From: Acidimicrobiia bacterium
Lineage (GTDB): Bacteria > Actinomycetota > Acidimicrobiia > IMCC26256 > PALSA-555
Direction: 5' to 3'
Length of the DNA: 64,000 nt
Assembly (NCBI GenBank): GCA_040881685.1
Contig: JBBECS010000054.1
Coordinates: 90,953-154,952, forward strand
The notes under the pieces were generated by a model. The model saw only the letters and a list, made by a program, of their open reading frames with translations, was not told where the DNA came from and made no database searches. A program made the position numbers and the translations under genes. This document shows, piece by piece, positions 20,286 through 26,277 of this stretch; position 1 is the first letter of the stretch, and each line of letters begins with the position of its first letter.

Positions 20286-21455
20286 TCAGTGCGACGAGGT
20301 CGGCAGGCTGCGGCCCTCGACGACGGCCCGCTCGAGTGCCGCGGCAATCCGATGATCATCGGCGCTGACACGGATCTGGTGACGTCGGAGACGCCTCGAC
20401 ACGACATGTGTGAGTGCCAGCGCAATGCCCAGGCCCGCCGCGCCAACCCAGATCCCCGCAACCTCGGCGAGCACTCCTGCCAGGGCGAACACGGCCGGCA
20501 GAGGAGCGTCGACGACCGCCATTCCGAATGCGAGGTGTCGATCCCAGATTCCCGTGGCGCGATGAACCCGAACCAACGCAACCACAAAGGTGATCAACAG
20601 GACGCTGGCCAAGACCGCACAGACGGCACCCACGACGCCAAGTCGCGCAGCAATCAAGACGCCAAGAGCTGCGGAGCTGAACACGAGGATGCTGTGCCAA
20701 ATAGCTCGTTGGAACGACGCAAGCCTCGTGTCCCGAGGTCTTGATGCGATCATCAACACATCAACAAGGACGAGCAACGACACGATCGAAACCGAGCCCA
20801 CCACGAATCCGTGGTTCAGAAGCACGAACCCACACAAACCACCCAAGATCGCGAGGCCGAGCATCGGGACCTCAGATCTGATCAGCAGGCGCACGTTGTC
20901 GCCGAAGGCCGCACCGCGTAGCAGCGAAAGGGCTGCCGCCAAGGCGCAAGTGTTTACAACCCAATACATGACAGCGACTGGTGCTACCAGGATCGCAAGC
21001 TGAGCGATCGACATGCGTTCGCCGTCGTAGGCAAGTGTGAATGTCCCCGCGGCGGCTAGCGCGGATAGACCAATTGCCGATGCGTTCACGACAATCTTGG
21101 CGTAACTTCGTTCTCTGAGGTGTGGCCAGTAGATCCCAGCGCACATAGCGCAGAGGAGAGGGCCAAAGAGGGGCGATGAGTCGCGGAATGCCACGACTGA
21201 GCCGATCGCCACGATGATGCTGCTACTCATTGAGGTTTCGTCTCCGAAGAGACGATCGCGGTTCTCCGTTGCGACTACCAGGACAACGAAGAAGAGGAGC
21301 AGGCCGAGAGGAGGCATGCTCTCAGACGTCGACAAGACCCCGGCTGCAGCAACGAGCATGAGCAGGAGCAGTGCAACCAACATTCGGTATCCGAGCGTGT
21401 GCGCTGGTTGAGCGTGTGATCGGACTGCTTGCAGATCTGCGACTGGATCGGTCAT
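20286..21455 (-). CDS. Membrane protein coupled to an ECF sigma factor, MASE-like domain
   Basis: A 389 aa protein with about ten hydrophobic helices and no soluble output domain. Residues about 60-170 (ATENRDRLFGDETSMSSSII, FGPLLCAMCAGIYWPHLRER, IVVNASAIGLSALAAAG) are clearly related to the N-terminal membrane domain of the HD-domain protein at 24878-26224 (NTSVVLPNDSAMSASFML, LGPLLVGIAGGMYFPHIRER, VFFNAGSLGLAALAAAG). The ATG overlaps the sigma factor stop by 4 bases, so the protein may be the membrane sensor or anti-sigma partner. Part of the gene (about 20.6-21.3 kb) has visibly lower GC than its neighbours. It is not a named family to me. Confidence 0.72.
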   Translation of the reverse strand: MTDPVADLQAVRSHAQPAHTLGYRMLVALLLLMLVAAAGVLSTSESMPPLGLLLFFVVLVVATENRDRLFGDETSMSSSIIVAIGSVVAFRDSSPLFGPLLCAMCAGIYWPHLRERSYAKIVVNASAIGLSALAAAGTFTLAYDGERMSIAQLAILVAPVAVMYWVVNTCALAAALSLLRGAAFGDNVRLLIRSEVPMLGLAILGGLCGFVLLNHGFVVGSVSIVSLLVLVDVLMIASRPRDTRLASFQRAIWHSILVFSSAALGVLIAARLGVVGAVCAVLASVLLITFVVALVRVHRATGIWDRHLAFGMAVVDAPLPAVFALAGVLAEVAGIWVGAAGLGIALALTHVVSRRLRRHQIRVSADDHRIAAALERAVVEGRSLPTSSH

Positions 21456-22162
21456 TCGGAGGACCCTCTCCCAATCCGATGCCCGTACAGCTCGATGAGC
21501 TGCTCGTAGCACGATTGGCACGCTGCGCATGCCGCCAGGTGCGCACCAACGTCGGCCCGCGTCTTCTGACTCAGGAGTCCGCGGTGAAACCGTCCGAGCC
21601 TGGTGCGGATCGGCTTGCATTCCCCTAAGCCTGCCTGTGCGGCACTGTCCATGCACGCGCCCACGAGCTCCTCGCGCGCGCGATGGGCTCTCTGGCGAGC
21701 CGCGACCGACGTGATGGTCAGCAGCTCGGCCACGTCGGGAAAGCTCATGCCGTCGATGTAACGCAGCCGGATGATCTCCTTGCTCGTTGGCGACAGCATT
21801 TCGAACGCGGCTCGAGCAATGGTGAGATCGATGCCGATCACCACCTGATCGTCAGGCGGAACATCTGTAGACGGCATGCCTTCCGCGTAGCCGGCGCCAA
21901 TGAACCGTCGTCCACCCCGTGCACGCAGCTGGTTGCGCCACGCATTTCGTACCGCAGTCAGTAAATAGGGGCGAACGTGCTCTGCGTCGGAGATGTTCTC
22001 CGCTCTTCGCAACACGTTGAGGATCGCCGTGTGCGCGAGGTCTTCGGCTTCGGCCTGGCTCCGCACGAGATGCCTTGCCAAGCGATAGGCATCCTCTCGG
22101 TATCGAGCGATGAGGAGGTGGATCTCCCCGGGTTGCTGAGCTGCGTCGCCCCGACCCGCCAT
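21452..22162 (-). CDS. ECF sigma factor with C-terminal zinc-finger extension
   Basis: A 236 aa RNA polymerase sigma factor. Region 2 spans about residues 17-85 (YREDAYRLARHLVRSQAEAEDLAHTAILNVLRRA) and region 4 about 112-168 (EMLSPTSKEIIRLRYIDGMSFPDVAELL and the recognition helix). A tail of about 65 residues follows and holds H-x3-C-x2-C at His208, Cys212 and Cys215, the zinc motif normally found in ZAS anti-sigma factors. Thus sigma and an anti-sigma-type motif are on one chain. The ATG at 22162 is the most likely start. It is followed by a translationally coupled membrane protein. The trigger and regulon are unknown. Confidence 0.85.
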   Translation of the reverse strand: MAGRGDAAQQPGEIHLLIARYREDAYRLARHLVRSQAEAEDLAHTAILNVLRRAENISDAEHVRPYLLTAVRNAWRNQLRARGGRRFIGAGYAEGMPSTDVPPDDQVVIGIDLTIARAAFEMLSPTSKEIIRLRYIDGMSFPDVAELLTITSVAARQRAHRAREELVGACMDSAAQAGLGECKPIRTRLGRFHRGLLSQKTRADVGAHLAACAACQSCYEQLIELYGHRIGRGSSE

Positions 22163-22324
22163 GCCGCCGTCCCACTGTCCGCCCCGAGGCTTGGTCCTCG
22201 GCCCGCTCGGAACGTACTGACGGGCGCGGTGACTGTCGACCCCTCCAATACAGAATCTTGCGGCCAACAACGACAGGAAAACAACGTCACCGCTTGCGGC
22301 AGTTGCTGTCGCAGCGAATCGCCT

Positions 22325-23098
22325 TCAGCGACCCTTCCATGAGGCTGGTCGCTTCTCGATGAACGCAGCGATGCCCTCGGCGGCGTCCTCGGTGACGGCT
22401 GTGAGACTCAACATCGACTGGAGGTAGTCGAGCGCATCATCGGATCTCATCTCGAGCGCCCGGTAGAACGATTGTCGGCCCCAGCGCAGCACCAGAGGCG
22501 ACTTCGACGCGAGCTCGGCCGCCAATGATTCGACTTCGGCATCGAGCTGACCGACGGGCACAACCCGATTCACGATGCCCAAACGAAGTGCTTCCGCAGC
22601 ATCTACTCGGCGTCCGGTCGCCATGAGCTCATACGCAACTCGCGGTGGAAGCACGCGCAGCATCGGGACGGTGACCATGTACGGCCACAGGCCGACATCG
22701 ACCTCCGGCGTCCCGAACTGGGCGTCGTCGGCCGCCACGACGAAGTCGCAGGCCAACGCGAGTCCGAAGCCTCCGGCCAGTGCGTAGCCGCGCACGCGGG
22801 CAATGGTTGGCTTCCCGAGTCGCCACAGGTCACGAAACAGCTCCGCGAGCTCCCCTCGTCCTTCGTGGGTCGAAGCAACATCGCTGCCGGCCATCCCCGA
22901 GAGGTCGGCACCGGCACAGAACGCCCGATCTCCTGCACCCGTCAGCACCACAACCCGCACGGCGTCGTCGGATCGCGCGCGCTCCACCGCGTCGCGCAGT
23001 CCCTTCATCACGGCGAATGACATCGCATTACGCAGTTCGGGCCGGTTGATGGTGACACGCGCCATCGCTCCGACAACCTCGTACTCGAGCTCGCTCAC
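22325..23098 (-). CDS. Enoyl-CoA hydratase/isomerase family protein
   Basis: A 257 aa crotonase-fold protein. The oxyanion-hole segments are AFCAGADLSGM and YALAGGFGLALACDF, and the region where hydratases carry a catalytic Glu reads FGTPEVDVGLWP. Members hydrate or isomerise acyl-CoA esters in fatty acid or amino acid breakdown. The exact substrate cannot be read. GTG start. The 160 bases between its stop and the sigma factor gene hold no other gene and should contain the sigma factor promoter. Confidence 0.88.
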   Translation of the reverse strand: MSELEYEVVGAMARVTINRPELRNAMSFAVMKGLRDAVERARSDDAVRVVVLTGAGDRAFCAGADLSGMAGSDVASTHEGRGELAELFRDLWRLGKPTIARVRGYALAGGFGLALACDFVVAADDAQFGTPEVDVGLWPYMVTVPMLRVLPPRVAYELMATGRRVDAAEALRLGIVNRVVPVGQLDAEVESLAAELASKSPLVLRWGRQSFYRALEMRSDDALDYLQSMLSLTAVTEDAAEGIAAFIEKRPASWKGR

Positions 23099-23155
23099 CC
23101 TCGCATCGTAGGCAATCCGATTCGGGAACGAAGGACCTCGCTAGCGTTGACCGGC

Positions 23156-23737
23156 GTGTGGCTTTTGGTGCTGACCATCGTGAGCGCCGCGCTCGTCGTT
23201 GTGGTCACGCTCGGGAGCATCTCGCAGCTCTCACGTCTCGCTGTAACTGGCGGCTGGATGTTGGCTGTCGGGCTCGGCATCCAGATCCTCCTGGATGTTG
23301 TCGACGTTCCAGCTGATCAACTCGAGACTGTTGGCTACGGCCTGCTCATGGCTTCGTTCGCGTTCATCCTTGCTTTCTGTCTGGCCAACTTCCGAACAGC
23401 AGGTTTCGGTGTGATTGCGATCGGCGTGGCGATGAACGCGCTGGTGATCGGTCTCAATCAGGGAATGCCGACCATCGACATCGGCAACGACGCTGAGGGC
23501 AACCGAATCCAGAAGCCGATCGCCGTCTCCGTCAAGCACCGGCCGGAGCAGCCCGACGATCTCTTGCGGATCCTCGACGACAGGATCCTGTTCCCCGAGC
23601 CGTTCGACGCGGTCGTGTCGTTCGGAGACCTAGTCGTCACGGTCGGGATCTGTGAGCTCGCGTACTTTGCGAGCCGGCGTCGACGCAGTCGCCGGGGAGG
23701 CGTCAGTCGTCCACTGTCAGCAACCCGCGGCGCGTGA
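23156..23737 (+). CDS. DUF5317 family membrane protein
   Basis: A protein of about 193 aa with four hydrophobic segments and the DUF5317 hallmarks: a middle MNALVIGLNQGMP segment, a short outside loop with VKHRPEQPDDLLRILDD, and the closing PFDAVVSFGDLVVTVGI helix. The family is found mostly in Actinobacteria and Firmicutes and has no known function. GTG 23156 is preferred because a TAGCGT box lies 8 bases upstream; TTG 23147 is possible and has AAGGA 11 bases upstream. The 3' end overlaps the convergent gene by 35 bases. Confidence 0.75.
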   Translation: MWLLVLTIVSAALVVVVTLGSISQLSRLAVTGGWMLAVGLGIQILLDVVDVPADQLETVGYGLLMASFAFILAFCLANFRTAGFGVIAIGVAMNALVIGLNQGMPTIDIGNDAEGNRIQKPIAVSVKHRPEQPDDLLRILDDRILFPEPFDAVVSFGDLVVTVGICELAYFASRRRRSRRGGVSRPLSATRGA

Positions 23738-24881
23738 GCACGCGCTCCAGCGCGCCGAGCACCCGCCCGTCGTAGACGTAGCCGGGTCCCGTGTAGAGCG
23801 CTTCGACCGCCCAGGACGCGTGCTCGTCCTGGCCTTCGGTGAGCTCGTCGAACGCGCTTGCCACCTTGAGTACCTGACCCTCGAGCGCCGCGGGCAGCGC
23901 GGCGGCGACGCCGGGCGGGCGATGCAACGATGGTTCTGAGGCCACGATGTCACCGGCAGGCGCGAGTGCGGGGCTGGCGCGCAACATCGCTGCCCCCGAA
24001 CGCGCGACCTCGATCGGATCGTGTGGCGTACCGGGCGGCGGCTCATCGAGACATACCGCGCCAAGGTGATGAAGAAGCGCTGCGGTCTCGAGATGCTCGA
24101 GATCCGTCGGCGGAAGCTCGAGCTCCCGGCCGAGCTCCACCGCGAGCTCGGCTACCCGCTCCACATGGCCAGCGCGGACCAGGCCTCCCAGCTCCGGTGC
24201 AGTTCCGAGTGCAGACACGGTTTGGCGGAATCCGCGTCGCGTTGTAGCCAGCAGCTCGAACGAGTACCAGGCTGCGAGGAGCGGAATGCAGAACAACAAC
24301 GGGCCCCACAGACCAAGACGACCCTCGCCGTCAATCCCTGCATAACCCAATGCCATCAACATGGCGCTCGTCACCAGGGCGAGGTCAGCGCCGCGGGCGC
24401 GGGCCGGTGCAACACGGTGCTCCCGGACCGCCGTCACGAGATCGGCGACGACCACGGGTGCGATTGCGGCAGCTGCGAGCGCTCCGAGCACGAGTGCTCG
24501 TTGCTCTGCATGCTCCGTGGCATCGACGACCAGCCGATACGCAGCCCGGATCACGTACCCCTCTGCGATCCGTTCGGCGAGCAGCAGCGTGCGGTCCCAC
24601 CACCCTGACGGTTCCATCCGGATCGCGACCGCAACGAGATAGCCGACGCCAACGACAATCGCATATTGCGATGGCGTGGAGGCAGGAACGAGCACGACCG
24701 CGACCGCGAGCGAGAGCGGGAGTGGAGCGCGACCAATGGGACGGAGCTCGAACAGCTCGCCCGCCACCAGCGCCGCACCCAAGATCGCAAGATCCGGGCT
24801 CCCCCACGAGAACGCCTCCAAGGCTCCAGCCGCAATCGCGCCGGCAGCCGCGACCAGCGCCACCCGCCGAAGTCGACTCAC
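23703..24881 (-). CDS. Membrane protein with degenerate HD domain
   Basis: A 392 aa protein. The first 240 residues are a multi-helix membrane domain, and the C-terminal 150 residues keep the outline of an HD phosphodiesterase domain: HVERVAELAVELGRELELPPTDLEHLETAALLHHLGAV. The metal-binding HD pair is replaced by HH and there is no GYP motif, so cyclic di-GMP hydrolysis is unlikely and a binding or scaffold role is more plausible. GTG 24881 overlaps the stop of the upstream HD-domain gene by 4 bases, so the two are made together and may form a heteromer. Confidence 0.72.
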   Translation of the reverse strand: MSRLRRVALVAAAGAIAAGALEAFSWGSPDLAILGAALVAGELFELRPIGRAPLPLSLAVAVVLVPASTPSQYAIVVGVGYLVAVAIRMEPSGWWDRTLLLAERIAEGYVIRAAYRLVVDATEHAEQRALVLGALAAAAIAPVVVADLVTAVREHRVAPARARGADLALVTSAMLMALGYAGIDGEGRLGLWGPLLFCIPLLAAWYSFELLATTRRGFRQTVSALGTAPELGGLVRAGHVERVAELAVELGRELELPPTDLEHLETAALLHHLGAVCLDEPPPGTPHDPIEVARSGAAMLRASPALAPAGDIVASEPSLHRPPGVAAALPAALEGQVLKVASAFDELTEGQDEHASWAVEALYTGPGYVYDGRVLGALERVLTRRGLLTVDD

Positions 24882-26224
24882 GGCCGCACCCGCCGATCCT
24901 CGGCTTCCAGGTCTCCCAACCCTGCCGAGCCCGTGCCAACGACCGGAGGCGGAATGGCGAAGGAGGCGACATCGGTCTCGTGCCCGGCGCCGTACCGCTC
25001 GCCGCGACGTTCGAGAACACTGATGAGCGCGTCCACACACGTGGGCTCGAACTGTGAGCCCGCCTTGTCTCGAAGCTCTGCGAACGCAACTTCCTGGGGA
25101 AGGGCCCGTCGATAGGCACGCGTTGATGTCATCGCGTCGAAGGCATCCGCAACCGCGACGATCCGCGTCTCGATGGGCGCGAGCTTCAGCGCCTCGTTCT
25201 TCTGGCCTTCGGCCTCGAGGCTCAGAACGACGGGAGCGAGGAAGTCGATCTGCCGGAGGAGCTCGATCGAGACCCGTTCGTGATCGCGCATCCGAGCGAA
25301 TTCTGCTTCGGTGAGGAGACCGGGCTTGTTGAGGATCTGGTTCGGCACGATGAGCTTCCCGATGTCGTGCATCAGCGAGCTGTAGCGGAGACGTTCGAGC
25401 GTCGTGGAGCGGAGTCCGAGCTCGAGGCCAACCAGGTGTGCGAATCGCGCCACCCGTTCAACGTGGCCCGCCGTGTACTTGTCCTTGGCTTCGAGCACTC
25501 GAATGAGCGTGGACAGTGTCGCTTCCTGCGCTTCCCGGAGCGCGAGGTACGAGGCGAACGCCTGTCGGGCGATCAGGATCGGTGCAACAAACAGGGGAAT
25601 GATCCATGCACCGACGTCGACATACAGACGACCGAGCAAGACCCCCATTAAGGCGAACGGATAGATCTGAAGATCGCCGAGCCACAGCTCTTTTGCAACT
25701 TCGTTGATTGGGCGATTCTCGTGCAGTGCCAGCGCAAGCGTAAGGAGAACGAAGTTCACAAGTGAGTAAGTGAGTGCGGTGGGAATCGCAACCGCAAGCT
25801 GCCCAGGAATAGATCGCAGAACATTGTCCGGAAAAATTGAATAAACGCCTGCCGCTGCCAATGCGGCAAGTCCAAGGCTTCCTGCATTGAAGAAAACCTT
25901 GCGCCATTGGCGTTCGCGAATGTGCGGGAAGTACATACCCCCCGCAATCCCGACGAGAAGCGGCCCCAGAAAACGAGCGTCCTCATGAAACACGACGATT
26001 GACGACACTGCGAGCATGAAGCTCGCGCTCATCGCGGAATCGTTTGGAAGGACGACGCTTGTATTTGCAGCGAACGCGCACAACACGCCGAGGATGACGA
26101 GCGCGGCTACGTTCGGCGAAGGGCTTTCGACCGACAAATAGGCACAAGCCAACAATGCAAGAATCGCCACTCCTGCGCACAGGGCGGCCAATCCGAGACT
26201 CTCGCTTCGCTGCAACCTACGCAT
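24878..26224 (-). CDS. Membrane-bound HD-domain protein, HD-GYP-like without GYP
   Basis: A 448 aa protein. Residues 1-225 are a membrane domain related to the one in the protein at 20286-21455. A short linker (LREAQEATLSTLIRVLEAKDKYTAGHVERV) leads to an HD domain with LMHDIGKLIVPNQILNKPGLLTEAEFARMRDHE and VADAFDAMTSTRAYRRALP, all typical of HD-GYP cyclic di-GMP phosphodiesterases. The usual HHERxDGxGYP stretch is missing: the region between DHERVS and RIVAVADAFDAM reads VVLSLEAEGQKNEALKLAPIE. Activity may therefore be altered. ATG 26224 is chosen over TTG 26239. Roughly 25.6-26.2 kb has lower GC than nearby genes. Confidence 0.8.
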   Translation of the reverse strand: MRRLQRSESLGLAALCAGVAILALLACAYLSVESPSPNVAALVILGVLCAFAANTSVVLPNDSAMSASFMLAVSSIVVFHEDARFLGPLLVGIAGGMYFPHIRERQWRKVFFNAGSLGLAALAAAGVYSIFPDNVLRSIPGQLAVAIPTALTYSLVNFVLLTLALALHENRPINEVAKELWLGDLQIYPFALMGVLLGRLYVDVGAWIIPLFVAPILIARQAFASYLALREAQEATLSTLIRVLEAKDKYTAGHVERVARFAHLVGLELGLRSTTLERLRYSSLMHDIGKLIVPNQILNKPGLLTEAEFARMRDHERVSIELLRQIDFLAPVVLSLEAEGQKNEALKLAPIETRIVAVADAFDAMTSTRAYRRALPQEVAFAELRDKAGSQFEPTCVDALISVLERRGERYGAGHETDVASFAIPPPVVGTGSAGLGDLEAEDRRVRP

Positions 26225-26277
26225 GCGAAAAGAGGACAAACGGATCGGGCAGGACCCCGGTTAACTCTCTTCATTGG

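Follow-up and report, generated by a model that had tools for sequence, protein, structure and literature searches.

A MASE9-like membrane protein with a predicted S-component fold encoded beside an ECF sigma factor in one family of Acidimicrobiia

Gene organization of the locus

The DNA analysed here (the window, 64,000 nucleotides) belongs to contig C54 (JBBECS010000054.1) of the 3.1-Mb genome of an Acidimicrobiia bacterium (GCA_040881685.1). It encodes an extracytoplasmic function (ECF) sigma factor with its own zinc finger, referred to as SIG, followed by a polytopic membrane protein, MEM, and close to this pair two membrane-bound HD proteins, HDA and HDB (Table 1). The genes of SIG and MEM are translationally coupled; the stop codon of the former and the start codon of the latter overlap as ATGA, which bears out the original prediction, made from the sequence of this locus, that MEM is sigma-coupled. 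The start codon of HDB overlaps the stop codon of HDA as GTGA.

Pfam searches with SIG gave Sigma70_r2 (5.6e-12), Sigma70_r4_2 (1.9e-11) and zf-HC2 (6.3e-7), all above the cut-off, and the TIGR02937 model was matched with 1.9e-21. SIG possesses regions 2 and 4 and lacks region 3, and it is therefore an ECF sigma factor. The zinc-finger ligands C...HxxxCxxC were conserved in the members of the SIG family that cover this region. ECF sigma factors that carry a zinc-finger anti-sigma (ZAS) domain and transmembrane (TM) helices within one chain are represented by ECF48, ECF52 (SCO4117) and ECF53 of Actinobacteria (PMC8999054, PMC5826349). SIG resembles these proteins in the order of its domains, with ECF sigma domains followed by a C-terminal zf-HC2 domain (PF13490), and in being tied to a membrane part. 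In ECF52-type proteins, however, the sigma chain itself includes the membrane part, one or two TM helices, as well as a carbohydrate-binding module, whereas SIG has neither and ends about 20 residues past the zinc finger; its membrane part is the separate, overlapping gene MEM, which encodes a polytopic putative receptor.

Table 1. Features of the SIG-MEM locus and adjoining genes (positions in the window)
Feature	Position	Strand	Remarks
MEM	20286-21455	-	389-aa polytopic membrane protein; start within SIG stop codon (ATGA)
MEM, MASE9-like domain with predicted S-component fold (residues 20-236)	20748-21398	-	FGDET hairpin, YWPHLRER...VNA motifs; profile match, AlphaFold2, Foldseek (RibU/FolT/HmpT)
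MEM, C-terminal membrane extension and short cytosolic tail, DDHRIAAALERAVVEGRSLP	20289-20738	-	Possibly decayed second domain copy; low model confidence
SIG, ECF sigma factor with C-terminal zf-HC2/ZAS zinc finger	21452-22162	-	Pfam
SIG, subdomains	sigma70 region 2 ~21914-22114; region 4 ~21665-21814; zinc finger ~21515-21619	-	
Enoyl-CoA hydratase	22325-23098	-	Between HDB and SIG
DUF5317 membrane protein	23147-23737	+	Pfam PF17248 1.4e-16; convergent with HDB
HDB, MASE9-like domain and degenerate HD domain	23703-24881	-	HHLG replaces HDxGK; HdgB-like
HDA, MASE9-like domain and HD domain without HHExxDGxGYP	24878-26239 (alternative start 26224)	-	Counterpart of Streptomyces HdgA
HDA, subdomains	MASE9-like 25544-26215; HD 25040-25510	-	

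Distribution of the SIG-MEM pair

SIG and MEM were adjacent in all nine loci (eight genomes) in which the junction was visible, and in eight of these the genes overlapped or lay within 2 nt of each other. The junction read ATGA in G000, G039 and one copy of G041, GTGA in G036 and G037, and TGATG in the other copy of G041; the genes were separated by 1 nt in G033 and G035 and by 6 nt in G038. In G032, G040 and G042 the junction was hidden by contig ends. The pairing persisted in G033 and G035 amid different surrounding genes and away from HDA and HDB.

Within the Acidimicrobiia, the SIG-MEM pair was restricted to a single family (f1). Eleven of the 12 genomes of this family carried SIG, MEM or both; the remaining one, G034, which is 84% complete, carried neither. 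Among 198 genomes of the class, SIG orthologues (E<=1e-20) occurred in 10 genomes of the family and in one other, and among 395 class genomes full-length matches to MEM were restricted to the family. The one outside the family, a sigma homologue of G007 with 37% identity, was considered as a possible pair and rejected, having neither a zinc finger nor a membrane partner. In G041, two contig ends (L069:9484-11186 and L068:1-1374) hold two distinct SIG-MEM copies that are nearly identical in places; the assembly may have broken here at a tandem duplication of the pair.

Identity of the shared membrane domain

MEM and HDA had been predicted to have a long membrane region in common, and BLASTP as well as profile-profile comparison confirmed this region together with the coordinates of both proteins. 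Residues 16-216 of MEM and 10-210 of HDA were 31% identical over 202 residues with 1% gaps (BLASTP E=1e-19), which gives the shared domain a size of about 210 residues. The local alignment score was 271, whereas 500 full shuffles gave at most 67, and 500 shuffles inside 12-residue blocks, which preserved the hydrophobic pattern, gave at most 84. When the whole genome was searched with HDA, MEM was the only protein lacking an HD domain that was found (E=6e-24). Profiles built from nine MEM and 32 HDA sequences matched each other in their N-terminal parts (MEM-N and HDA-N) with a probability (P) of 100% and E=4.9e-40. DUF5317 and major facilitator superfamily (MFS) proteins were rejected as relatives, the control profiles of both giving probabilities below 1%.

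The domain had been regarded as unnamed. Comparison with the known MASE families, proposed as a check of that claim, gave a match to MASE9, and the domain can therefore no longer be called unnamed. From other genomes of the phylum, 22 MASE9 domains recognized by Pfam were combined into a profile, which was aligned over about 220 columns (hhalign) and matched the HDA family with P=99.7% and E=1.4e-26, and MEM-N with P=98% and E=1.7e-13. HDA by itself scored 20.9 bits to Pfam MASE9 (PF20972), below the gathering cut-off of 24.3 bits, and MEM alone matched no Pfam model; direct membership of MEM in any Pfam or NCBIfam family was rejected for want of a credible match, the hit to Kinocilin (E=0.019) being below cut-off and implausible. 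By sequence, the domains of MEM and HDA are thus divergent relatives of MASE9 and not formal members by the Pfam cut-off. They share with MASE9 homology over the whole length, an S/T-rich hairpin, a positively charged loop, an (F/V)N motif, and the place ahead of HD and GGDEF-EAL outputs. They differ in that the FGDET hairpin stands where MASE9 has LPxxG. HDA and HDB also resemble MASE9 proteins in having a signalling output C-terminal in the same chain, whereas MEM stands alone: membrane helices and a short tail make up the end of its chain, and its partner is a sigma factor.

The idea that one domain was reused beside a sigma factor and ahead of an HD output was supported, with three copies instead of two, as HDB had been missed. 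The membrane part of HDB matched MASE9 with P=95.7% and E=8.8e-9 when 30 HDB orthologues were used; a first comparison with six sequences had indicated that HDB was unrelated and was overturned by the larger set. Three copies of the domain thus lie in a stretch of 6 kb, and two further copies are present elsewhere in the genome. One is an HD-output paralogue (L002, 52% identical) about 2.5 kb past the end of the window, and the other is followed by a GGDEF-EAL output (L001); both exceed the Pfam MASE9 cut-off, with 24.8 and 27.0 bits, respectively. Across the class the outputs of MASE9-like domains were mainly HD domains, besides GGDEF-EAL with or without GAF-like segments. In two further proteins of Acidimicrobiia (L245:1-1070 and L239:1475-4126, both on the minus strand) the MASE9-like domain was followed by a GAF-like segment, to which L239 adds GGDEF-EAL.

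Predicted fold of the membrane domain

An AlphaFold2 model of MEM, calculated with 29 sequences, gave a predicted local distance difference test (pLDDT) score of mostly 85-98 for residues 20-236 and low confidence for the C-terminal extension. Foldseek comparison of the model with the PDB matched the S-components RibU, FolT and HmpT of energy-coupling factor transporters with probabilities of 0.95-0.98, and ThiT was also matched; the TM-score normalized by target reached 0.71 to S-components. Among the 50 best matches, all those above a probability of 0.5 were S-components or the transition-metal transporter 4m5b. An independent model of HDA matched RibU, FolT and BioY, beside HD-GYP domains, and reached probabilities of up to 1.00 to S-components. 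The Foldseek E-values to S-components were weak (0.07-1), so that the fold assignment rests on probability and specificity and not on the E-value, and a second line of evidence was therefore sought by profile comparison. A pooled profile of MASE9, HDA and MEM matched the S-components of PF12822 with P=49% and E=1.8e-4 over 192 columns, and control comparisons stayed below 0.5%. The MEM-N profile alone gave no such signal with PF12822 (P=0.3%), and the fold assignment for MEM is therefore based on the AlphaFold2 model and on the relatedness to MASE9. Structure prediction thus supports a fold like that of S-components for the membrane domain. As far as we found, this fold has not been reported for MASE9 or for sigma-paired receptors.

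In receptors, the S-component fold has been described for 5TMR histidine kinases of the LytS/BtsS type (PMC11109136), in a study that makes no mention of MASE domains or of sigma factors. MEM resembles the 5TMR-LYT receptors (LytS, BtsS/YpdA) and S-components such as RibU and ThiT (PMC11109136) in its predicted fold of six to seven helices and in a loop motif between the early helices. It differs from 5TMR proteins in lacking a significant sequence match (one alignment member, E=0.05), and in its putative output, which would be a sigma factor in trans where theirs is a kinase. The 5TMR-LYT profile found one member in 150 genomes of the phylum. PF12822 domains were also seen in unusually long reading frames of other Actinomycetota (L284, 846 aa; L285, 944 aa; L287, 553 aa), which are possible fusions.

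Origin of MEM

In a tree of 49 sequences MEM formed one clade (100/99). This clade grouped with HDA of the same family (95/95), within the HDA sequences of the whole order, which were set apart from MASE9 and other sequences of the class with 99/95. The topology favours, without proving it, an origin of MEM by copying of the local HDA sensor domain; a separate HDA clade was not rejected by an approximately unbiased (AU) test (p=0.317).

The profiles of the N-terminal and C-terminal halves of MEM matched with E=1.5e-4 and P=52%, suggesting that the C-terminal half may have arisen as a second copy of the domain and decayed since. The similarity was clearest in the longer MEM proteins of 493 and 502 residues (L072:6561-8042 and L074:4913-6421), whose second half resembles a second S-component-like domain, as in a tandem sensor. 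An acidic, helical tail, DDxxLxxAxxxAxLxG, was common to the MEM proteins of six genomes (G000, G041, G036, G040, G037 and G038), and the polar residues R66, D72, T74, H112 and N124 were invariant in the sensor domain.

Proposed function of MEM and alternative explanations

With a probability of about 0.6, MEM senses a ligand as a membrane receptor and directly controls SIG by way of the zinc-finger domain of the latter. For this reading we infer that MEM binds a ligand and that it touches SIG, and we also infer the sign of its effect on SIG. The sensor domain would have been copied from the neighbouring HdgA-like HD protein or a close relative; MEM would then have shed the HD output, acquired additional membrane helices as well as a short tail in the cytosol, and become the dedicated partner of SIG. 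The ZAS domain fused in cis may keep the sigma domains inactive or tether them to membrane-bound MEM. When a small ligand binds to the outward-facing side of MEM, the C-terminal helices and tail of MEM would shift, and this shift would open the contact between ZAS and sigma domains and free the sigma factor for RNA polymerase. By analogy, the pair may best be explained as a split, re-wired version of the ECF52 architecture.

Several observations weigh against MEM acting in this way or having arisen as proposed. It has no sizeable cytosolic domain that could serve as an anti-sigma factor, the MEM proteins of the G032/G033 type lack the conserved tail, and upstream of SIG there was no conserved autoregulatory ECF-type promoter, only scattered AAC/CGT matches that were not shared. 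The weak Foldseek E-values and the result of the AU test belong here as well.

The same shortage of cytosolic parts would fit MEM being a mere membrane anchor of SIG that senses no ligand, with the ZAS domain of SIG itself responding to zinc or to the redox state. SIG has a complete, conserved ZAS motif, and zinc-finger anti-sigma domains can be redox-sensitive according to a paper on HHCC reactivity, as cited in PMC8999054. An anchor would, however, hardly need the full, well-conserved sensor domain with its invariant polar residues that MEM retains, from a family that stands ahead of enzymatic outputs, and we consider this explanation unlikely. Genes next to those of ECF sigma factors are often under the control of these factors, and together with the predicted S-component fold this would also suit a co-transcribed pair with separate functions, in which MEM would be, for example, a small-molecule transporter or permease subunit regulated by SIG. 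Among the compared neighbours of MEM no EcfA/EcfT-like gene was present, and residues 20-64 of MEM contain no AxxxA coupling motif by the rule given in PMC11109136, which argues against transport; the missing motif is as expected for a receptor rather than a transporter. MEM moreover clusters with signalling proteins and not with transporters, and its pairing with SIG was kept where the locus had moved (G033, G035), so that a pair with separate functions appears quite improbable.

The occurrence of one domain in three adjacent genes raises a further explanation, namely that MEM mixes with HDA and HDB through this domain and that sigma activity is tied to the state of the HD proteins and to cyclic di-GMP (c-di-GMP) signalling. 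There is a precedent in Streptomyces, in which the c-di-GMP phosphodiesterase RmdB binds the sigma factor WhiG and antagonises the anti-sigma factor of WhiG (PMC13232838). HDA, however, lacks HHExxDGxGYP and HDB lacks the HD pair, so that turnover of c-di-GMP by these proteins is doubtful, and in G033 and G035 the SIG-MEM pair lies apart from HDA and HDB; such a link is very improbable.

The MASE9 domain, the HD tandem and sigma-ZAS-membrane fusions are already known. In the open-licence papers searched no description was found of an enzyme-free MASE9-type receptor with S-component fold coupled in trans to a sigma-ZAS protein. The chances are about even that the pair represents a new class of sigma control, in which an ECF sigma factor that has a zinc-finger anti-sigma domain of its own is the direct target, in trans, of a MASE9 receptor with S-component fold. 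Such control would have evolved when a c-di-GMP-type sensor was detached from its HD output and re-wired to transcription. MASE domains are widespread, and few have known ligands or mechanisms; an S-component fold for MASE9 would lead to the concrete hypothesis that a cavity in the membrane accommodates a ligand of the size of a vitamin or metabolite. In SIG-MEM a sensor would have parted from second-messenger enzymes and been linked to a sigma factor, which sets the signal apart from the response to it and suggests a route by which ECF sigma factors may acquire polytopic receptors. The pair is small enough for testing in a heterologous host.

HD domains of HDA and HDB

HDA and HDB correspond to the hdgA-hdgB tandem of Streptomyces, which encodes a 6TM-HD-GYP protein and a 6TM protein with a degenerate HD-GYP domain (PMC6205966) and which was seen in most of the Streptomyces loci retrieved. 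As in HdgA/HdgB (PMC6205966), an HD protein is followed by a degenerate one, both membrane-bound by prediction; the differences are the lack of HHExxDGxGYP in HDA of this order and the nearby SIG-MEM pair. In the fetched flanks of 80 relatives, mostly from Streptomyces or other bacteria, there was no match to SIG or MEM.

HDA keeps the metal ligands H...HD...D of HD-GYP domains, with conserved YTAGH, LMHDxGK and ADAxDAMT. HHExxDGxGYP was absent from HDA (window 25169-25228, minus strand) and from the aligned order-wide HDA family (loci L015-L067), and a designation of HDA as an active HD-GYP phosphodiesterase is therefore not warranted. The motif was kept in 70 of 80 more distant relatives; the relatives L130 and L132 carry HHSRFDGGGYGG, apparently an intermediate stage in its loss. 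An anti-phage role was considered and rejected, PADLOC giving only a weak match of the HD domain to Cas3g.

DUF5317 genes near MASE9-type genes

The DUF5317 gene is a conserved neighbour of the HDA-HDB cluster and adjoined it in six other loci of the order. DUF5317 also recurs beside other signalling genes of the MASE9 type: in this genome it is found next to HDB and, at L001:508-1512 on the minus strand, next to the GGDEF-EAL paralogue. DUF5317 is a possible candidate for a partner of the MASE9-type sensor. It was also present near HD proteins of distant genomes (L130 and L140), one of which is a metagenome-assembled genome of Syntrophomonadaceae.

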